Of a stretch of DNA of 64,000 nucleotides, positions 3,047-47,360 are shown piece by piece. The stretch comes from a virus. How positions within the stretch are numbered: position 1 is the stretch's first letter; each line of letters starts with the position of its first letter. A program made the position numbers and the translations under genes. The notes under the pieces were generated by a model that was not told the DNA's origin, made no database searches, and saw only the letters and a list, made by a program, of their open reading frames with translations. The stretch covers positions 1-64,000 of IMG/VR virus record IMGVR_UViG_3300023179_000033; one strand, written 5' to 3'.

Positions 3047-3083
3047 ATATATATTTGGCTTTTTTGTATTAGTAAATAGAGAT

Positions 3084-3171
3084 TGGAACGAGTAGGATTC
3101 GAACCTACGGATGATATTAAACCATCGGAAGTTTAGTAAACTTCTGCTTTAGACCACTCAGCCATCGTTCC
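3084..3171 (-). tRNA. tRNA-Ser-like, class II, anticodon ACU
   Basis: A full cloverleaf can be drawn. The acceptor stem is GGAACGA/TCGTTCC with discriminator A. The D-arm, GATGGCTGAGTGG, is typical of bacterial tRNA-Ser. The anticodon stem is GAAGT/ACTTC with loop TTACTAA, a long variable arm pairs GATG with CATC, and the T-arm is GTAGG-TTCGAAT-CCTAC. The anticodon is ACU, read against AGU serine codons. Bacterial AGY-decoding tRNA-Ser normally has GCU, and discriminator A instead of G is also unusual for serine. CCA is not encoded. It lies 1 nt after the stop of the adenylosuccinate synthetase gene. Confidence 0.85.
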
Positions 3172-3172
3172 A

Positions 3173-17049: not shown

Positions 17050-17471
17050 GGGCGCGTACTGGTTTCGATTTTAGGAATCGGAATTAAAATGCAGGTAGAG
17101 GTTTAGGTGGGTCTCTTTAAAAAGCCTTAAAAGTATTAACTGCTAAAACAGCTAAATACAAAGGTCATATCTCTGCTAGAGTTTCTCTAGTCGAGGAGAC
17201 CGCTTCTGTAGCTTAAGTTCTACAGCGTGATTACCATGACACATCTACTGGATAATTGCGTAATTAGATGTATTTTTATAAAATCCTTTTCATTTAATTT
17301 TTTATAAAAATTATTAAGGGTAAATTTGACCAAGGTTGAATTTATTATTAAATGAATAGCTAAAAACCAATTGTTTATTCGACTCTTTAGCGAATCAACG
17401 GAATAAACTAAACTTGTAGTATTTTAATTTAAATTCACTAAAACACGAAGGTTCAACTCCTTCCGCGTCCA
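17050..17471 (+). ncRNA. ssrA: Transfer-messenger RNA (tmRNA)
   Basis: Rescues stalled ribosomes by adding a degradation tag. The acceptor stem GGGCGCG (17050-17056) pairs with CGCGTCC (17464-17470), with discriminator A. The T-arm is GAAGG-TTCAACT-CCTTC, directly adjacent. The tag reading frame probably resumes at GCT 17142, in an ACTGCTAAAAC context, and ends at TAA 17214-17216. This gives about 24 residues starting AKTAKYKG and ending ETASVA, a small apolar end as in other tags. The stop lies in the hairpin CTGTAG/CTACAG (17206-17225). The T-arm-to-acceptor geometry and length (about 420 nt) fit one-piece tmRNAs. CCA is not encoded. Confidence 0.9.
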
Positions 17472-19507: not shown

Positions 19508-20710
19508 ATGAAAAAAGAACTAGAGATTGATTTTAGTTCCGAGATAACAGCTAAAAAGGGAAAAGCACCTCTTAATAAACCATTTCGTCTTCCCTCTGGA
19601 AGTAAAAAGAAATTTGGTGTTTACGTCAAGAATGATAAAGGCAATATTGTAATGGTCAAATTTGGTGATCCAAATATGTCTATTAAAAGAGATGATCCAG
19701 CTAGACGTAAAGCTTATAGATCAAGACATGGTTGTGATACTGGTCGCCGTGGGCCAAAATGGAAAGCTAATTATTGGTCTTGTAAAATGTGGAGCGCAAA
19801 ACCAGTTAGCAAAATTACAGCTAGTGAAGAAGAGATAACTTTAGAAGCTGATATTCAAGCTAAAAGCAAAGGCCTTTGGTACAATATTCAACAAAAAAAG
19901 AAAAGAATGGGTAAAAACTATCGCCCAGCACCAGAAGGCTCTAAAGATCGTCCAACTCAAGAAGCTATTAAAAAAGCCCAAGCTAGTGATTATTTAAATG
20001 AAGAATATGAATGGGATGGGGAAACAGAATTTGATCAAATTGTATTCTTAGAAGACAAATCATTAGCTCAAGTTGAAGAAATTGAAGATCCAGAAGATGA
20101 ATTAGAAGATTATAAAGAAGATTTTTACGAAATGATAGTTGGTTCAATTAATTCAATTCAACAACATGCAAAAAATATTTTAGATAAACTAAATGATCCA
20201 ATGGTAAAAGAAAATCTTACAGAACCATTTTTACAACAAATGGCTGCGCTCGCAGAAGATTATATGATTACTATTCATAACTTTGTAATGTTCAATAAAG
20301 AAAATGAGATGGAAGTAGAAACAGAAGCTCAAATGCACGGACCAATTGGTGATTATGTATCTAAAGATTCAGGATTCTCTGGGCCAATTAATGAATATGA
20401 AAATGCAAATACAATTTTTAAAGTAGGCGATAAAGTTAAAAATATTAATTCACAATGTAAGCATTATGGTAGCGAAGGAATCGTAAAAGAAATTCGTGAA
20501 CTTCCAGAAGATATGGGATACGCAGTTATCTATGAAGCAACTAATGATGGCTCAACTTGGAAAAAAGGAGATATGATTGGAAAAACAGAAATTCAATTAG
20601 AAAAAATTGAAGCAAAATGGAGTATGAAATATAAAAGAAGCATAGACTGCAATAATCCAAAAGGTTTTAGTCAAAAACAACATTGTAAAAGTAAAGCATC
20701 AGAAAAATAA
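19508..20710 (+). CDS. DUF5872-like phage protein with KOW-like domain, 400 aa
   Basis: Residues about 20-100 contain SGSKKKFGVYVKNDKGNIV, FGDPNMSIKRDDPARRKAYR and NYWSCKMW, the DUF5872-type pattern of phage head-associated proteins. An acidic helical middle (about 165-265) follows, then an SH3/KOW-like domain (FKVGDKVKNINSQCKHYGS) and a C-terminal CNNPKGFSQKQHCKSK motif, also seen in phage virion proteins. It is probably a structural or prohead component; the exact role is not clear. An AGTGTAAG box ends 3 nt before the ATG, partly overlapping the previous stop. Confidence 0.6.
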   Translation: MKKELEIDFSSEITAKKGKAPLNKPFRLPSGSKKKFGVYVKNDKGNIVMVKFGDPNMSIKRDDPARRKAYRSRHGCDTGRRGPKWKANYWSCKMWSAKPVSKITASEEEITLEADIQAKSKGLWYNIQQKKKRMGKNYRPAPEGSKDRPTQEAIKKAQASDYLNEEYEWDGETEFDQIVFLEDKSLAQVEEIEDPEDELEDYKEDFYEMIVGSINSIQQHAKNILDKLNDPMVKENLTEPFLQQMAALAEDYMITIHNFVMFNKENEMEVETEAQMHGPIGDYVSKDSGFSGPINEYENANTIFKVGDKVKNINSQCKHYGSEGIVKEIRELPEDMGYAVIYEATNDGSTWKKGDMIGKTEIQLEKIEAKWSMKYKRSIDCNNPKGFSQKQHCKSKASEK

Positions 20711-20746: not shown

Positions 20747-21277
20747 GTGAATAAGCTTAAGAATTTGTTCAATTGGTTTGGATGGAAAAGTAAACTAATA
20801 TTAGTACTTTTAATAAATGCAGCAATAGCTTATTACTCTCTTAAGGCAGGATTTAATTTAGCTAAAACTTATAGTATATCAAAACTTCCTAATTCTTGTT
20901 TTGTTGATTCTGTAGTATTTGCTTCAAATGCAAATTATATATTATCAAATGAAAATACATGGGCGCAAATTTATGCTTTTCAATATCATTATAAAGATGA
21001 ATTAAAAACAGAAATAGAGTTTGATAAAACTGCAATAGAATATACGGTCAAAATACCAAAATATCATGGTCATGCAGTTTGTGTTTTTGAGCATAAAAAG
21101 ATGCTATGGATTTATGATAGTAATTATGGAACAATGCCTATTGGAGCTAGTGGAAATAGAGGAGAATATCACTTAAGAATAACCAATTGGATAGAAGATA
21201 AATATAATGCAGTAGTTTTTAATAGTATACTTATTGATGATGATAATAAAAAAACATTAGAATGGATAAAAGAATGA
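20747..21277 (+). CDS. Membrane-anchored cysteine-peptidase-like protein, 176 aa
   Basis: One transmembrane segment (about residues 16-36) is followed by a globular domain with a possible Cys-His-Asp triad: Cys51 in LPNSCFVDSVVFA, His109 in YHGHAVCVFEH and Asp124 in WIYDSNYGT. The order and spacing fit papain/transglutaminase-fold enzymes. No known family is certain. It should face the periplasm or exterior if the N-terminus is inside. It lies just upstream of the PEP-CTERM operon, so processing of those proteins is an attractive guess but unproven. GTG start with AGGAG. Confidence 0.5.
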   Translation: MNKLKNLFNWFGWKSKLILVLLINAAIAYYSLKAGFNLAKTYSISKLPNSCFVDSVVFASNANYILSNENTWAQIYAFQYHYKDELKTEIEFDKTAIEYTVKIPKYHGHAVCVFEHKKMLWIYDSNYGTMPIGASGNRGEYHLRITNWIEDKYNAVVFNSILIDDDNKKTLEWIKE

Positions 21278-21334
21278 ACGAAATTAAAGTTCAACTGTCT
21301 GTAAATATATGACCTTGCAAAGGAACAAGGATAA

Positions 21335-21385
21335 ATGAAAATTTTAGCATTCATAATGCTAAGTAAAAATCAAATAACCGCGTAA
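21335..21385 (+). CDS. Possible 16-aa leader peptide
   Basis: AAGGATAA-ATG gives MKILAFIMLSKNQITA and a TAA that sits in the loop of the following terminator hairpin. An inverted repeat TTAGCAT/ATGCTAA lies in its first codons. The overlap of a short frame with a terminator is the layout of attenuators, but no run of regulatory codons is present. Weakly supported. Confidence 0.3.
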   Translation: MKILAFIMLSKNQITA

Positions 21386-21396
21386 GCGGTTTTTTT
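21376..21396 (+). terminator. Intrinsic terminator before the PEP-CTERM operon
   Basis: The stem AACCGC/GCGGTT with a GTAA loop is followed by a run of seven T. It lies between the peptidase-like gene and the first PEP-CTERM gene. Confidence 0.75.
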
Positions 21397-21413
21397 ATTA
21401 TAAGCAGATAAAT

Positions 21414-22148
21414 ATGAAAATAAACTCATTGAAAATATTAGCTAAAAAAGTATCCGCAACTTTATTTGCGGTTTTTTTGTCTTTAAATATAGCAAAATCA
21501 GAAGTAATTTTTACTGAAAATTTTGAAGATGGATCATGGGATGGATTCACCGCGTATCCCTCTGCGAACACATCAGTATTAAATTCTGGTGATACAATCT
21601 ATGGCGCTCCAACAACAGGAGAAATTGGGACATATATTATAGCTCCAGAAGGATCAAAACTAGGTAAAATGTGGCCATTATATTGGTCTCCCGGAAATGT
21701 AACTACATCTATCTTTGTAAAATATGATGATTATTGGGCAACACCAGAAACTGGATGGGTTCCTTATTTACAAGGCAAACAAGTCAAACTATCAATGGAC
21801 GTTTATATATCTAGTTATGATCCAATGCAAACTACTACTAATGTAAGTATATTTGCAAAATTCTTTAATCAAGACTATTCATACTATTATGATTGGGCAT
21901 CAGTAATTACTTCTGTAAAAGATTCATTGTTAGATACATGGGTAGCTAGGGAAATAGTTGTAACAGTTCCAAATGATGTTTCAGTTATTCAATTTGGATT
22001 AGAGATGACTCAACAAAATTATAGTTCTGGTTCTATAAATGTTGATAATATGGCAATTCAAATCGTGCCAGAACCATCATCTTCTTCTTTGCTTCTAATT
22101 GGTTCCATATCTTTAATTGCACTTAGGAGATTAAAGAGAAATGGATGA
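21414..22148 (+). CDS. Secreted PEP-CTERM protein, CBM-like, 244 aa
   Basis: Residues 1-29 are a signal peptide (basic start, hydrophobic ATLFAVFLSLNIA, AKS cleavage site). The mature part is a beta-rich domain starting EVIFTENFEDGSWDGF, similar in style to carbohydrate-binding jelly-roll domains. The last 27 residues are a PEP-CTERM signal: VPEPSSSS, a hydrophobic helix, then RRLKRNG. Such proteins are cut and anchored by host exosortase. The phage gene therefore seems to make an exported, host-sorted surface or matrix protein. It overlaps the next gene by 8 nt. Confidence 0.8.
   Translation: MKINSLKILAKKVSATLFAVFLSLNIAKSEVIFTENFEDGSWDGFTAYPSANTSVLNSGDTIYGAPTTGEIGTYIIAPEGSKLGKMWPLYWSPGNVTTSIFVKYDDYWATPETGWVPYLQGKQVKLSMDVYISSYDPMQTTTNVSIFAKFFNQDYSYYYDWASVITSVKDSLLDTWVAREIVVTVPNDVSVIQFGLEMTQQNYSSGSINVDNMAIQIVPEPSSSSLLLIGSISLIALRRLKRNG
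21454..21478 (+). terminator. Terminator-shaped hairpin inside the signal peptide coding region
   Basis: The stem CCGCAA/TTGCGG with a 6-nt loop is followed by seven T, within codons 14-22 of the PEP-CTERM gene. It has the form of an intrinsic terminator and could lower expression unless ribosomes follow closely. It may also be a chance product of Ala and Phe codons. Confidence 0.45.
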
Positions 22149-22380
22149 TAATTTGAAAACTTTATTAAAAAAAAATTACTATCAATCAGACCCTAAACAA
22201 ACTGAAAATTTTATAAAAAATTTTCATCAATATAGAATTAAAAAACAATCTGAAAGAAAAACTAATTTGCTTGCAATTTTATTATTAATTGTTGTAGCAG
22301 TCTGTGGATTTTCCATAGTCTTAAAAGAAACAAACAATAAATTAGATATACAAACATCATCAGGAGAAATAAAAAAATGA
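22141..22380 (+). CDS. Single-span membrane protein, 79 aa
   Basis: A basic soluble N-terminal half (about 40 residues) is followed by a transmembrane segment (about 43-60, LLAILLLIVVAVCGFSIVL) and a short polar tail. It overlaps the PEP-CTERM genes on both sides (8 and 4 nt), so it belongs to the same operon. The topology resembles a small adaptor or anti-sigma-like protein; no family recognised. Confidence 0.5.
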   Translation: MDDNLKTLLKKNYYQSDPKQTENFIKNFHQYRIKKQSERKTNLLAILLLIVVAVCGFSIVLKETNNKLDIQTSSGEIKK

Positions 22381-23147
22381 AAAAAATACTAAAAATATTA
22401 GCCGCATTGTTATTAATTAACATAAGCGCTCACGCTGAACTTATTTTAGTTGATTTTGGTGCTTCTGGCGCAGGATGGTATGGTGGAGCATCTGTAGTTG
22501 GCGCAGATGCTAATGGTAATTATTGGAATAGTGTTACTTCGGGATCATACTATTCTAATCTATTAAATACTGCTGGAAATCAAACTTCTATTGGAGGATT
22601 TGGATTTATAACTGGTATGGCATTTAATAGTTATAATGGACCCGCAGGACCAACATCTAATCCCCTTATTCAATCTCAAATAAATGCAACTGCATTTACA
22701 TCTGCTGCAGGTATATTTGGAGTAAAAGAAGCATTAGTAGATTATATTGCAACAACTTCTAGCGTACCAAGTGTGAAATGGAGTATAAATGGTTTAGATT
22801 CATCAGTTTTATATACTATAAAATTTTATGGATCAGCAAAATATCAAAATGATTATGCTACAAAACTTAATGTATATAGTGATAATACATTTAATTCAAG
22901 TAGTCTAATTGCTACGGCTACAGCTAATTATCAAAGTCCTACTCAGTCATGGGTAATTAATACAACAGATATCGGCGTACTACCTAATTTAACAACAACA
23001 GGTTCATTATATTTTGAAATGCGTGGCGCAAACGGAGGAACAGGTTTAATAAATGCTATGAGTATCGAATCATTAGCGGCTATTCCAGAACCTTCTACTA
23101 TGCAATTAGTTTTATTAAGTTTGTTAGCACTTAGAAAAAGAAAATGA
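22377..23147 (+). CDS. Secreted PEP-CTERM protein, 256 aa
   Basis: Signal peptide at residues 1-20 (MKKILKILAALLLINISAHA). The mature part begins ELILVDFGASG...YWN, a pattern frequent in secreted PEP-CTERM proteins, followed by a beta-rich fold. The C-terminus is IPEPSTMQLVLLSLLALRKRK, a complete PEP-CTERM signal. It is the second such protein in the operon, unlike the first in its main domain. A role at the host surface or in extracellular polymer is inferred. Confidence 0.8.
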   Translation: MKKILKILAALLLINISAHAELILVDFGASGAGWYGGASVVGADANGNYWNSVTSGSYYSNLLNTAGNQTSIGGFGFITGMAFNSYNGPAGPTSNPLIQSQINATAFTSAAGIFGVKEALVDYIATTSSVPSVKWSINGLDSSVLYTIKFYGSAKYQNDYATKLNVYSDNTFNSSSLIATATANYQSPTQSWVINTTDIGVLPNLTTTGSLYFEMRGANGGTGLINAMSIESLAAIPEPSTMQLVLLSLLALRKRK

Positions 23148-23488
23148 AAAATATATTACTTATTATTTTAGTCGCAATAGCTTTAACAACGTATTCTTAT
23201 ACAGAGAATCAAATTAAAATTAATTTAGCAAGAAATAATAAAGGACAAATCTTATTAAATATAACAGGACATACATCTCCAGTAGTAATAGAAATGAATG
23301 GAAAATCTCTTGCATTTAATGTTGGAGATAAAGAAATAAATTTAGATGAAGCTTTAGATGAAGCTTTAGATGTTGATTTAGAGTCCGTAGAGACAGCCAG
23401 CGGAGTAGAAAGACCAAATATAAATAATCAAGTGCCACCAGTTTCTAATAATATTAATCCTAATCCACCAAAAGCTACGCCATATTAA
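23144..23488 (+). CDS. Small secreted protein, 114 aa
   Basis: Residues 1-18 look like a signal peptide (KNILLIILVAIALTTYS), then a beta-rich stretch, a short LDEALDEALD repeat and a Pro/Asn-rich tail. It has no PEP-CTERM signal or lipobox. Its ATG overlaps the stop of the PEP-CTERM gene as ATGA, making it the last gene of this export-related operon. Function unknown. Confidence 0.5.
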   Translation: MKNILLIILVAIALTTYSYTENQIKINLARNNKGQILLNITGHTSPVVIEMNGKSLAFNVGDKEINLDEALDEALDVDLESVETASGVERPNINNQVPPVSNNINPNPPKATPY

Positions 23489-23505: not shown

Positions 23506-23763
23506 ATGCTAATAAAATGGTGGAAAAATTTAAAATATTACGATAAATTCTTTTTTATAGTTTTTATTCCAGCTATACTTTTTACTCTTTGGGGTATAAG
23601 TGATCTTTATATAAATTATTTCGATGAATTAACTTTTCAAGATCATATGCAATTTTTTTTAAGAATATTCTTTCCTATTAGTTTGGCTACATTTATAACA
23701 ATTTTAGAACGCAGAAAAAGAAATAAATTAATAAAAGATATTAAAAATTATCTAGATAAATAA
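23506..23763 (+). CDS. Small two-span membrane protein, 85 aa
   Basis: Hydrophobic segments lie at about residues 13-33 and 47-64, with a basic C-terminal tail (ERRKRNKLIKDIKNYLDK). The class B promoter suggests late expression, and a holin-like size and topology is notable. No lysis partner is visible, so the role stays open. Confidence 0.5.
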   Translation: MLIKWWKNLKYYDKFFFIVFIPAILFTLWGISDLYINYFDELTFQDHMQFFLRIFFPISLATFITILERRKRNKLIKDIKNYLDK

Positions 23764-23890: not shown

Positions 23891-24247
23891 TTAGTCTATT
23901 TTGATTTTATTTTGTAGTTTTTTATTCTCTTTACCAAAAGTAATAGTAAGCAAACCATCTTCGTGCTTTGCCTTTACTTCGGAAAGGTCTACTTTTCTAG
24001 GTAAGTAAAAAGATTTTTCATATTTTACTTTGCCTTCTTTTCTTGTAGCCCTAATTGTTAGATATTCTTGATTTGCAGTAATCTCAATATTTTCTTTCTT
24101 AAATCCTGCAAGAGGTATTTCAAGAGAATATTGATCATTTTCTAAAACAAAGTCAGAATATCCTTTATCATAATTAAATATAGAATCATTAAATATATTT
24201 TCAAATATATCTAATGGTCTACTTCCATTTCTTAGTGTCAATAGCAT
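23891..24247 (-). CDS. Small heat shock protein, Hsp20 family, 118 aa
   Basis: ATP-independent chaperone that holds unfolded proteins. The alpha-crystallin domain spans about residues 33-115 (YSLEIPLAGFKKENIEITANQ, YEKSFYLPRKVDLSEVKAKHEDGLLTITF). The N-terminal arm is short. Hsp20 genes are known from several large phages. It has an unusually strong AAAGGAGG Shine-Dalgarno 10 nt before the ATG and a sigma54-like -24/-12 match, both unlike its neighbours, which may mean transfer from a host. Confidence 0.88.
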   Translation of the reverse strand: MLLTLRNGSRPLDIFENIFNDSIFNYDKGYSDFVLENDQYSLEIPLAGFKKENIEITANQEYLTIRATRKEGKVKYEKSFYLPRKVDLSEVKAKHEDGLLTITFGKENKKLQNKIKID

Positions 24248-43233: not shown

Positions 43234-45684
43234 ATGATATATTCACTACAAGTAGAAAGACATGTATTAAGCGGGCTGTTAAAACATCAAGATTTGTTTG
43301 CTGATATTGATGTATTTTTAACCGAGAACGATTTTTATAATGACGTTCATTCGTCAATATATACTGTATTTAAAAATATTAAACATAAAGGCGAAAATGT
43401 AGATAAGATTCTATTAGCTGAAAAGATCAAGAATCTAGGTATATCATTTAAAGATGAAATTAATATTTTTGACTATATTGATAATTTAAGTTTTTCACAG
43501 ATCACAGAAGAAGCTACTTTAAATGCTTGTAAAGAATTAATCAAATTAAGAATCCGTAGAGAAATATCTCAAACAGCAGATAAATTAAAAGAATATGTTA
43601 ATAAAAATTCAGAAGATTCAATTGACGATATCATTGGCAAAATAGATCAGATATATAATAAGAAGATTTCAGCATATTCAGAAAATGATATGCCAGTTAA
43701 TATTTTTTCTGAAGTAGAAGACCTTATTGAAGAAATTGGTAATTCTCCAAAAGAAGATACAGGATTGATTACGCCATATTCTGAATTTAATAGAATGTAT
43801 GGTGGTTTAAAAAATAGTAATATTTATGCAATTGCTAGTAGACCGGGGCAAGGTAAAGCTTTAGAAGAAAATACTATTATTTTAACACCAAATGGATTTT
43901 TAAAAATAAAAGATATAAAAGTTGGAGATTATGTATTTTCTATAGATGGCAAACCTACAAAAGTACTAGGAGTAAGAAAATGGGAAAATAGACAAATTTA
44001 TAAAGTATCTACAGATGATAATCAATATATTTTAGCAGATGAAAATCATGAATGGACAGTTCAACAAAGAAGTGATTATAAATGGAAAACTTTAACAACG
44101 AAATATCTTTTTGAAAATAAGTTTAATAAAAAGCCCAAAATTCCTAATTATAAACCTATTCAATTAACTCAACAAAGATTGTTAATTGATCCATATATAT
44201 TAGGAGCTTGGCTAGGTGACGGCAATAGTAACTCAAGTGTATTAACATCAAATGATGCATTTATAATTAATAAATGGAAAATTTTTGGAAAAAAAATTGG
44301 TTTGAAATGCAAAAAATATTCAAGATATGGATATAGATTATGCTCTAATAATAAAAAGAATATATTTACATCATATATAAAATATTTAAATATATTCAAT
44401 AATAAACATATACCTCAAATATATTTAATGGGATCTATAAAACAAAGAAGAGCTTTACTCCAAGGCTTAATTGATACGGATGGATACGTAGCACCAGATG
44501 GTCAAGTTGAATTTTGTAATACAAATAAAAAACTTGCGGAAGATGTTTTATTCTTAATACATTCTTTGGGTATTAAAGCGTCTATGTATGAATCTGATTC
44601 CTTTTTATATAATAAATTTTGTGGTAAAAAATATAGAATAAGATTTTATTATCAATATGCTGCTAAATTACCAAGAAAACGAAAAAATTGTATTAATAGT
44701 AAAAAATATAATCATAGATATTTATCTATAGAAAAATATGGCGTGGGAAATACTGTATGTTTACAAGTAGATCATCCATCTCATTTATTTTTAGCTGGTA
44801 AAGCTTTAATAACGACTCACAATAGTACATGGTTAAATGATATCTGTTTTAAAACTTCTATCAATCCTAAGAATAAAACCAAAACTTTAATTTTAGATAC
44901 GGAAATGCAAACTGTAGATATCCAATTAAGAATGGTTGCATCGCTAACTGATGTACCAGTATGGTATTTGGAAACAGGAAATTGGCGTAAAAACGAAGAG
45001 ATGACCAAAAAAGTTCGTGCGGCTTGGGCAAAAGTAAAAACATATGAATATTTTCATTATCATGTAGGAAATAAAAATATTGATCAAGTTTGCTCTATCA
45101 TTCGTAGATGGTATCTCTCAAAGGTTGGTCGTGGAAATCAAGCTATGATTGCTTATGACTATATCAAACTAACTGGAGAAAAAGTTGGTCAAAATTGGGC
45201 AGAACATCAAGCTATTGGAGAAAAGATTGATAAACTAAAAAGAATATCAGAAGAAATACATTGTCCAATTATTACTGCAATGCAATTAAATAGAACAGGC
45301 GAAAATTTTAATAGAAATTCTAATAATGTAGTTGATGATAGTTCTGTAATTTCACTCTCCGATAGACTTCAATGGTTTGCGTCATTCGTAGCCATCTTTA
45401 GAAGGAAAACTCTTGATGAAGTTACGCTTGATGGACAAGCATTTGGAACGCACAAATTAATTCCAACAAAAACAAGATTCCAAGGTAAAGATGCGGCTGG
45501 ACACCAAGATCTAGTTAGAAGATTAGATTCTGCGGGAAAAGAAGTATGGGCGCAAAACTATTTAAATTATCAAGTTACAAATTTTAATATTGAAGAGCGT
45601 GGTTCACTCAGAGATGTTGCAGAAAGACAAAGAGAGCAATATGAACTCACCGATCAAAATAGAAATGATGGAGAATTGCTATGA
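43234..45684 (+). CDS. dnaB: Replicative DNA helicase DnaB with intein, 816 aa precursor
   Basis: Unwinds DNA ahead of the fork. The extein N-domain (1-120) starts MIYSLQVERHVLSGLLKH, as in DnaB. The RecA-like domain has Walker A SRPGQGK-ST, interrupted exactly between K208 and S531 by an intein; removal restores GQGKST. MIAYDYIKLTG is the Walker B region, and KTRFQGKDAAG lies near the end. Mature length is about 494 aa. The gene overlaps thyX by 4 nt (ATGA). Confidence 0.9.
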   Translation: MIYSLQVERHVLSGLLKHQDLFADIDVFLTENDFYNDVHSSIYTVFKNIKHKGENVDKILLAEKIKNLGISFKDEINIFDYIDNLSFSQITEEATLNACKELIKLRIRREISQTADKLKEYVNKNSEDSIDDIIGKIDQIYNKKISAYSENDMPVNIFSEVEDLIEEIGNSPKEDTGLITPYSEFNRMYGGLKNSNIYAIASRPGQGKALEENTIILTPNGFLKIKDIKVGDYVFSIDGKPTKVLGVRKWENRQIYKVSTDDNQYILADENHEWTVQQRSDYKWKTLTTKYLFENKFNKKPKIPNYKPIQLTQQRLLIDPYILGAWLGDGNSNSSVLTSNDAFIINKWKIFGKKIGLKCKKYSRYGYRLCSNNKKNIFTSYIKYLNIFNNKHIPQIYLMGSIKQRRALLQGLIDTDGYVAPDGQVEFCNTNKKLAEDVLFLIHSLGIKASMYESDSFLYNKFCGKKYRIRFYYQYAAKLPRKRKNCINSKKYNHRYLSIEKYGVGNTVCLQVDHPSHLFLAGKALITTHNSTWLNDICFKTSINPKNKTKTLILDTEMQTVDIQLRMVASLTDVPVWYLETGNWRKNEEMTKKVRAAWAKVKTYEYFHYHVGNKNIDQVCSIIRRWYLSKVGRGNQAMIAYDYIKLTGEKVGQNWAEHQAIGEKIDKLKRISEEIHCPIITAMQLNRTGENFNRNSNNVVDDSSVISLSDRLQWFASFVAIFRRKTLDEVTLDGQAFGTHKLIPTKTRFQGKDAAGHQDLVRRLDSAGKEVWAQNYLNYQVTNFNIEERGSLRDVAERQREQYELTDQNRNDGELL
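43858..44823 (+). mobile_element. Class 3-type intein with LAGLIDADG endonuclease in DnaB, 322 aa
   Basis: Residues 209-530 of the DnaB frame. The first residue is Ala instead of Cys/Ser; the C-terminal end is ITTHN followed by Ser. Class 3 inteins carry a W-C-T set: Trp in ENHEWTV (block B), Cys in NTVCLQVDHPSHLFLA at the block F position, and Thr before the final His-Asn. All three are seen. LLIDPYILGAWLGDG and ALLQGLIDTDGYV are the two LAGLIDADG motifs of the homing endonuclease. Confidence 0.82.
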
Positions 45685-47360
45685 ATGTAGAATTAATCTC
45701 AATTACAAAACCAGAAATTAAAGGAATTAAAAATGCAGAAGATCTTGTAGCATTTTGCGCTAGAGTTAGCAATCCATCTAATCAGATGAATACAGAGACT
45801 GCGCCAAAACTTTTAAAGTTTTTAATAAAACATAAGCATTGGAGTCCATTTGAACTAGTAGATATGTGCGTTGAAATTAAGACTAGTCGTGGTATTGCTG
45901 CGCAGATTCTTAGGCATAGATCATTTAGTTTTCAAGAATTTTGTATATCTGGCGATTCATTGATAACATGTATTATTCCTTCTAATAAATTACCTAATTA
46001 TATTCCTATTGAAAAATTATTTAAAAGACAAAAATGGAAAAATTATAAAAATATATTAGTTAGAGTTTATGATGAAAATAGAAAAGAATTTACGACATCA
46101 AAAATAAAAGAAGTTTTTTATACTGGTAAAAAACCTGTATATAAAATTACTTTATCAGATGGTAAAGAAATAAAATGCACAAAAGAACATAAATTTTATA
46201 CAGATTCTGGATTTAGGAGTTTAGAAGATATAATCGGTTTAGATACTAAACATCATGCTATGACAAAACAAGGATATATTGCTGTTAATGGTATTCCTTG
46301 TTATCAAAATTACGAATGGATGCGTCAATCAAAACAAGAAGCCCTAATTAATAAATTAGGTTTAAAATATATATCACAGAAAGCAAATTGTTCTTATCAT
46401 ACTATAAGAAAATGGCTAACTAAACATAAATTAAATTTTACTAAAAAAGAAGTGGCAATATGTTTTCCTATTTGGAATAAAGATAAATTTGGATATAAAA
46501 CTAATTTAATTGTTTCTGAAAAACATAAAGAAGCTATAAGAAAAGCTAGAAGTAAAGAAAAATGTAATTTTTGGAAAGGTGGATGTGATAGATCAGAACG
46601 ATTAAAAATTGCAGATTGGTGTCAAAAAATAAGAAAACAAAAATTACAAGAATTTAATTATAAATGTAATATTTGTGAATCAAACTCAAAACTAGAGCTT
46701 GACCATATAATACCGGTATATAAAGACAAAACAAAAGCATATAATTATGATAATATTCAAGTTTTATGCTCTAATTGTCATGATAAAAAACATAATATTA
46801 ATGGCGATCCAAAAGAATACAGGCTTCTTAGCGGGGGAAATACTTTATCAATTAAATATGTTTTAATTGAAAAGATAGAATATTTAGGAAAAGAAGACAC
46901 GTATGACATGGAGGTATATCATAATAGCCATAATTATATAGCTAATAAAATTTTAGCACATAACTCTCAAAGATATAGTATTGCAAATGAGTTTGAAGAT
47001 ATTGAACTTCGTTTGCAGGGAGATAAAAACAGACAGGTTGGCGAAAAGTTAATGCCAATAGGTACAGATGCTTACGATAAAGTAAATGAATTACTAGTAG
47101 AATCATTATCTTTGTCACAGCATTGTTATGAAACGATGATAGAGAATGGTGTTGCAAAAGAAGTCGCCAGAATGATATTACCATTAACAACACAAACAAC
47201 TATGTATATGAAAGGTTCATTAAGAAGCTGGATTCATTATATCGAATTAAGAACCGAACAAAATACTCAAAAAGAACATAGAGAAATCGCGGAAAGATGT
47301 AAAAAAATATTTATTAAGGAATTTCCTACAATAAGTGAGGCTTTAGAATGGAACAAGTAA
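45681..47360 (+). CDS. thyX: FAD-dependent thymidylate synthase ThyX with intein, 559 aa precursor
   Basis: Makes dTMP from dUMP with methylene-THF and FAD. After intein removal the signature RHRSFSFQEF-SQRY (RHRxxSxxxxSxRY) is complete. The extein is 87 + 131 = 218 aa, normal length. The N-terminal FCARVSNPSNQMNTETAPKLLKFL is as in ThyX; the C-terminal GSLRSWIHYIELRT is the conserved substrate segment. Works downstream of the dCMP deaminase. The start overlaps dnaB. Confidence 0.9.
   Translation: MNVELISITKPEIKGIKNAEDLVAFCARVSNPSNQMNTETAPKLLKFLIKHKHWSPFELVDMCVEIKTSRGIAAQILRHRSFSFQEFCISGDSLITCIIPSNKLPNYIPIEKLFKRQKWKNYKNILVRVYDENRKEFTTSKIKEVFYTGKKPVYKITLSDGKEIKCTKEHKFYTDSGFRSLEDIIGLDTKHHAMTKQGYIAVNGIPCYQNYEWMRQSKQEALINKLGLKYISQKANCSYHTIRKWLTKHKLNFTKKEVAICFPIWNKDKFGYKTNLIVSEKHKEAIRKARSKEKCNFWKGGCDRSERLKIADWCQKIRKQKLQEFNYKCNICESNSKLELDHIIPVYKDKTKAYNYDNIQVLCSNCHDKKHNINGDPKEYRLLSGGNTLSIKYVLIEKIEYLGKEDTYDMEVYHNSHNYIANKILAHNSQRYSIANEFEDIELRLQGDKNRQVGEKLMPIGTDAYDKVNELLVESLSLSQHCYETMIENGVAKEVARMILPLTTQTTMYMKGSLRSWIHYIELRTEQNTQKEHREIAERCKKIFIKEFPTISEALEWNK
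45942..46964 (+). mobile_element. Class 1 intein with HNH endonuclease in ThyX, 341 aa
   Basis: Residues 88-428 of the ThyX frame, starting CISGDSLI (Cys1) and ending ANKILAHN before Ser+1. The insertion point lies inside the FAD/dUMP signature of ThyX. An HNH nuclease sits within: CNICESNSKLELDHIIPVY and NIQVLCSNCHDKKH with zinc-knuckle Cys. It thus differs from the DnaB intein in class and nuclease type, so the two were acquired independently. Confidence 0.88.

Follow-up and report, generated by a model that had tools for sequence, protein, structure and literature searches.

Why would a virus carry proteins tagged for a bacterial surface-sorting pathway? The question is raised by a 64,000-nucleotide stretch of viral DNA (hereafter the window; positions 1 to 64,000 of IMG/VR record IMGVR_UViG_3300023179_000033), in which a first-pass annotation described two exported proteins with PEP-CTERM signals, interleaved with a single-span membrane protein, followed by a small secreted protein and preceded by a membrane-anchored, cysteine-peptidase-like protein. 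All five open reading frames lie where that annotation had placed them (Table 1), and the phage origin it claimed is borne out by tape-measure and terminase genes in the 118,245-base record, which also carries ribonucleotide reductase and DNA polymerase genes. The phage further encodes a tmRNA (17050-17471; tag AKTAKYKGHISARVSLVEETASVA), a tRNA-Ser (3083-3172), a thymidylate synthase (45681-47360) split by an HNH-endonuclease region, which suggests an intein, and an ORF (43234-45684) with mixed helicase and terminase profile matches.

Table 1. The cassette and its surroundings, in positions of the window.
Feature	Position	Strand	Remarks
Left-flank phage gene (400 aa), conserved	19508..20710	+	weak phrog_7595 match
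CysP	20747..21277	+	N-terminal transmembrane anchor and papain/transglutaminase-like domain, Cys51-His109-Asp124
Intrinsic-terminator-like hairpin and U run, between CysP and cassette	21376..21391	+	z -3.1
PEP-A	21414..22148	+	signal peptide, beta-rich CBM-like domain, PEP-CTERM tail; TIGR02595 over cut-off
Terminator-like hairpin in PEP-A signal-peptide codons	21454..21471	+	conserved in main-clade lead cassette genes
PEP-CTERM tail 1, VPEPSSSSLLLIGSISLIALRRLKRNG	22065..22139	+	TIGR02595 24.2 bits, E 1.1e-5
TM79, single-span, C-terminal LDIQTSSGEIKK	22141..22380	+	start codon overlaps PEP-A end by 8 nt
DIxT[AS][AS]G motif of TM79	22345..22365	+	cassette proteins only, among 1608 ORFs
PEP-B	22377..23147	+	signal peptide, FDFG/NYWN domain, PEP-CTERM tail
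PEP-CTERM tail 2, IPEPSTMQLVLLSLLALRKRK	23082..23144	+	17.5 bits in frame scan, 13.6 as whole protein
SEC, small secreted protein	23144..23488	+	TASG motif, conserved C-terminal ATPY
WWN, right-flank membrane protein, conserved	23506..23763	+	present with or without cassette
Small heat-shock-like protein, right flank	23891..24247	-	named Hsp20 from sequence inspection only

Relatives of the locus were collected from IMG/VR. Single-query scans returned three loci for PEP-B, seven for PEP-A and nine for CysP, whilst wider scans with a CysP alignment and with TM79 returned 69 and 40 loci, respectively; 45 whole viral records were then picked from loci with and without visible PEP-CTERM tails. CysP, PEP-A and PEP-B each found no match among 50,697 GenBank phage records, and the host is therefore not given by any cultured relative.

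PEP-A and PEP-B each combine a hydrophobic N-terminus with a tripartite C-terminus of PEP motif, transmembrane helix and basic end, as read from their composition. The first-pass annotation had proposed a TIGR02595-type HMM search, allowing that the tails might score as ordinary membrane anchors. Both instead exceed the curated cut-off of 16 bits in a frame scan, at 24.2 bits for PEP-A and 17.5 bits for PEP-B; as whole proteins they score 19.9 bits and, below the cut-off, 13.6 bits, which makes tail 2 the weaker of the pair. Pfam PF07589 is below threshold for both (16.9 and 15.9 versus a cut-off of 20.7). Over the entire record TIGR02595 detects exactly two tails, both in this cassette. Amongst the 45 related viral records, 30 carry tails over the curated cut-off and 15 carry none, proportions that do not measure prevalence, since the records were picked from loci of both kinds. 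Moreover, 23 of 42 cargo proteins match TIGR02595 by themselves at E <= 0.1, and this recurrence of the tails excludes chance. The PEP motif itself is almost invariant over all 42, which are dissimilar in other respects. The tail after the motif is degenerate and less hydrophobic in L062:9514-11475, L067:9505-11466 and L017:1722-2528, and at L016:7440-8987 and L017:2532-4913 two PEP-CTERM proteins are fused in frame, a tail running into the next signal peptide.

The cargo borne by these tails varies strongly among loci: PATR repeats occur in 16/42 proteins and GH16 domains in 2/42, the others being mostly without a family. The structural model of PEP-A is of low confidence (pLDDT 48.5) and resembles carbohydrate-binding modules of the CBM4/16/22 type. 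The PEP-B domain is homologous to a domain of a multi-domain GH16/SGNH protein (family names from Pfam) encoded nearby in relatives (hhalign probability 95), and together these two resemblances favour a glycan-related function. A second modular variable site lies directly downstream of the WWN gene, where proteins with a short MR[VI][KQ]GTxQLG-like N-terminus in common (L005:9615-11885, L011:8980-11010, L007:11796-12176, L066:12297-12872 and L067:13166-13555) continue into unrelated domains (GH16+SGNH, PA14/GLEYA and others).

Does the phage also bring the enzyme that processes such tails? Neither TIGR02602 in the window's own record nor PF09721 in the 45 related viral records detected an exosortase; all of these records may be fragments, and on the phage side the result agrees with the earlier premise of sorting by the host. 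Carrying the tag without the enzyme to process it suggests that the virus uses host sorting machinery. The host phylum is probably Verrucomicrobiota, judging from the relatives of CysP, the PATR and PEP-CTERM cargo and the frequency of exosortase; the enzyme, whose absence from plausible hosts would have spoken against the first-pass annotation, was detected in 103 of 145 Verrucomicrobiota genomes, a figure for the probable host phylum and not for the host itself. An exosortase in the host is thus likely. Searches of 289 Verrucomicrobiota genomes, run with no positive control, gave no match for the PEP-A family at 1e-8 and none for SEC, and the phage tmRNA aligned to 338 genomes of the phylum in short patches of 76-93% identity only, giving no host call.

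In the recurring gene order, CysP is followed by between one and four PEP-CTERM genes and by TM79; some loci then have small additional ORFs before SEC, or a FecR-domain protein in its place, and WWN comes last. The first-pass annotation had described the genes as all overlapping, which holds for the ORFs from 21414 to 23488 (successive overlaps of 8, 4 and 4 nt) but not for CysP, separated from them by ~137 nt and a terminator-like hairpin; in most loci the first cassette gene begins 7-10 nt after CysP. A divergent clade (L016/L082, L017/L085, L077/L079) has PEP-CTERM, TM79 and SEC genes and encodes CysP on the other strand, and L136 has a PEP-CTERM cassette without an adjacent CysP gene. The surroundings are more constant, the left-flank gene being 62-79% identical across loci with and without the cassette, and the Hsp20-like protein 67-95% identical in several loci of both kinds. 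Identity to the window is 63-79% for the left gene, CysP and WWN of L025, L028, L033 and L037, and 67-94% for Hsp20 where these loci have it, yet BLAST finds no counterpart of PEP-A, TM79, PEP-B or SEC in any of the four. In L043 and L062, CysP is only ~40% identical to that of the window, against 78 and 56% for TM79 and 68 and 71% for SEC. Since the identities of flank and cassette diverge in this way, the cassette moves as a unit, largely independently of CysP; on these alignments it is an exchangeable, all-or-none block between conserved flanks.

By the rule used, the two hairpins of Table 1 are the only terminator-like hairpins on the + strand of the window. They take the form of intrinsic terminators or attenuators, a stable GC stem followed by a U run. 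The signal-peptide hairpin is found in 29/29 of the lead genes listed for main-clade cassettes, most but not all of which keep a clear PEP-CTERM tail, and is absent from loci without PEP-CTERM. RNA folding z-scores range from -2.7 to -4.0. Depending on the gene, about 0.7-17% of synonymous shuffles weighted by codon usage recreate the hairpin. No single gene is therefore decisive, and the case rests on the conservation of the hairpin, on its exact position and on the U run. Five of the eight pairs never vary, which leaves covariation short of significance, and an Rfam search of the cassette locus gave nothing above chance. In the lead signal peptide the hairpin probably attenuates transcription when translation lags.

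The constancy of these features bears on the possibility that the PEP-CTERM genes are captured host genes, their products ordinary inner-membrane-anchored proteins with no sorting and no selected role. Such an origin would suit the bacterial look of the cargo families, the short tails resembling simple membrane anchors and the degeneration of some of them. However, the operon frame, the motif and the hairpin remain constant across dozens of contigs despite diverse cargo, which indicates selection, and the near invariance of the PEP motif in the 42 cargo proteins also argues against it. We regard capture without function as unlikely.

What, then, is the role of CysP? The possible Cys51-His109-Asp124 triad of the first-pass annotation proved invariant in 33/33 aligned homologues. 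An AF2 model (mean pLDDT 79.9) shows a fairly confident domain and one N-terminal helix; its best Foldseek match is vasohibin (probability 1.00, E 0.01, ~11% identity, TM-score 0.37). CysP has in common with vasohibin/transglutaminase-like cysteine peptidases the Cys-then-His order and the local fold, but the E-value is not significant and the phage protein is membrane-anchored. Sequence searches gave no confident Pfam or PDB match, and Foldseek against viral models nothing informative. CysP was rejected as an exosortase itself, having one transmembrane helix rather than eight and with no PF09721/TIGR02602 match in the window's or related records. The sole match in the genome collection is a lipoprotein-like ORF of Geminisphaera colitermitum (Opitutaceae, Verrucomicrobiota), and a CysP profile found four further weak relatives in 388 Verrucomicrobiota genomes, three apparently exported and one broken by stops. 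L099, L100 and L101, exported Verrucomicrobiota proteins of no known family, contain the motif of CysP and what looks like a second, degenerate repeat. None of the bacterial relatives lies in a PEP-CTERM operon, the nearest case being one PEP-like ORF ~4 kb off in one genome.

The location of CysP invites the idea that it is the phage's own single-span papain/transglutaminase-like peptidase or transpeptidase, which would cleave PEP-CTERM, TM79 or SEC proteins together with a host exosortase or as a substitute for it. Its triad, its N-terminal anchor, its close spacing to the lead cassette gene and its weak likeness to vasohibin, a cysteine carboxypeptidase, are all compatible with this, yet 13 related contigs have CysP and no PEP-CTERM gene at all, the L136 cassette has no CysP beside it, and CysP falls to ~40% identity where TM79 and SEC are 56-78% identical to those of the window. 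Furthermore, the enzymes known to process PEP-CTERM proteins are of the 8-TM Cys-Arg-His type (PMC1569441). We consequently doubt a processing role. The operon does not count the cysteine-peptidase-like protein among its dedicated genes, since the cassette is exchanged without it; by its genomic distribution CysP is a conserved neighbour, neither the core of the cassette nor a proven partner.

TM79 is tied far more closely to the tails. Of 40 hits in its search, 39 are readable as TM79, and a PEP-CTERM tail lies upstream in 37 of these, counting L119 and L142, whose contigs start inside a PEP gene, L140/L046, where the tail is seen by TIGR02595 and not by the reading rule, and L145/L072, where it occupies a separate short ORF. 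In the other two (L130, L131) the contig ends less than 700 nt upstream; TM79 is flanked by PEP-CTERM genes in every locus long enough to test, and in most its start codon overlaps the end of a PEP gene by 8 nt. The linkage is recovered from both search directions, though the counts are not independent events because the contigs are related. A 61-aa relative, which profile comparison links to the N-terminal part of TM79 but which has no motif tail, is seen in L025, L028, L033 and L037; PEP-CTERM was found in 0/13 contigs carrying this relative (10 records searched whole). The basic N-terminal part of TM79 is predicted to be cytoplasmic. Its C-terminal motif, in the form D[IV]xT[AS][AS]G, was confined to TM79 and the FecR-type protein in a set of 1608 ORFs, with a related form in SEC. 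This FecR-type protein, of 303 aa, takes the place of SEC in some relatives (PF04773, 32.6 bits versus a cut-off of 24); it differs from FecR-domain proteins in its DIDTAAG motif and ATP[IY]-type C-terminal region, and no FecI/FecA partner was noticed nearby. The idea that CysP cleaves at DIxTAAG loses ground, since the regions read in the clade with CysP but no PEP genes do not contain the motif.

These partners raise a more self-contained scheme, to which we give little credence, in which TM79 and SEC/FecR form a dedicated acceptor or processing module for the PEP-CTERM cargo, possibly served by CysP. TM79 would present DIxTAAG on a short extracytoplasmic end and SEC/FecR would carry DTASG or DIDTAAG; sorted products would be joined to a phage-made anchor, under control of the terminator in the signal-peptide codons. 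If true, this would be a virus-specific surface-display pathway, and we know of none such as described here.

An operon acting in lysis or envelope disruption, its single-span proteins serving as holin or spanin parts beside cell-surface hydrolases, would account for the run of small membrane proteins (TM61/TM79, WWN) and the GH16 enzymes, but there is no lysis family match or muralytic domain and the PEP-CTERM cargo is dispensable as a block, making this improbable. That the PEP-CTERM proteins are virion decorations rather than host surface proteins is very improbable. PEP-B's FDFG domain does recur in a GH16/SGNH protein that is encoded downstream and begins with a conserved phage N-terminus, which might hint at such a role; but proteins with a signal peptide and a hydrophobic, basic C-terminal tail do not suit virion assembly in the cytoplasm, and the neighbours' MR[VI][KQ]GT N-terminus is missing from the PEP proteins.

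Our preferred reading, which we hold to be moderately probable, is of an exchangeable phage cassette whose PEP-CTERM surface proteins, sorted by host exosortase, remodel the surface of the infected cell. The cargo, bearing signal peptides, would be exported via the host Sec pathway; the host exosortase would then recognize and cleave the PEP-CTERM tail and hand the protein on to the cell's outer surface or to the matrix, as suggested by the known system, the tail, the lack of a phage exosortase and the exosortases of the host phylum. As the cargo appears to be glycan-binding or glycan-degrading and adhesin-like, remodeling of the infected cell's surface polysaccharide is likely, with a receptor perhaps masked or trimmed against competing phages, or the matrix or aggregation altered. 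TM79 and the SEC/FecR protein, marked by a short motif in common, would assist as dedicated partners, perhaps by chaperoning or accepting the sorted proteins or by regulating sorting. Counting against this reading are the degeneration of a few cargo tails (L062, L017), the poor model of PEP-A, the weak and indirect case for the host phylum and, weakly for want of a positive control, the missing PEP-A family match in 289 Verrucomicrobiota genomes. We infer that surface-glycan remodeling or superinfection exclusion is the likely function; exclusion, aggregation or matrix change, as the first-pass annotation proposed, may be the effect, the sequence being compatible with both exclusion and matrix change. 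With varied cargo, a compact operon and constant partners, such cassettes are small test systems for exosortase sorting and the extra proteins it needs, and the conserved in-ORF hairpin adds a testable regulatory idea.

As described so far, PEP-CTERM/exosortase belongs to bacteria and concerns their surface and exopolysaccharide: exosortases are reported to traffic PEP-CTERM proteins to the exterior (PMC12188702), and floc formation is reported to involve a PEP-CTERM gene (PMC9850573). In keeping with the earlier claim of novelty, the titles and abstracts of the open-licence literature on PEP-CTERM, phage and exosortase report no phage-encoded PEP-CTERM protein, nor does Haft 2006 (PMC1569441) mention phage. 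The substrates of the system are now seen as a phage cassette, a module exchanged across dozens of phage contigs, and this suggests that sorting is exploited by viruses to rewrite the infected-cell surface. The cassette has in common with the bacterial (EpsH) system of TIGR02595/TIGR02602 the signal peptide, PEP motif, transmembrane helix and basic C-terminus, the diverse cargo and the links to surface polysaccharide. However, bacterial PEP-CTERM genes are mostly single-gene operons after large intergenic regions (PMC1569441), whereas the phage operon is compact, overlapping and multi-gene, lacks exosortase, and has dedicated DIxTAAG partners and an in-ORF hairpin, which we found described nowhere. 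LPXTG/sortase and GlyGly-CTERM/rhombosortase (PMC3237569) likewise pair tripartite C-terminal sorting signals with varied cargo, but their motifs and enzymes differ. By its possible function, the cassette can also be likened to exclusion proteins of the Llp type, phage-encoded envelope proteins that alter the host surface. Llp of phage T5, a superinfection-exclusion surface lipoprotein, achieves this with no need of PEP-CTERM sorting.
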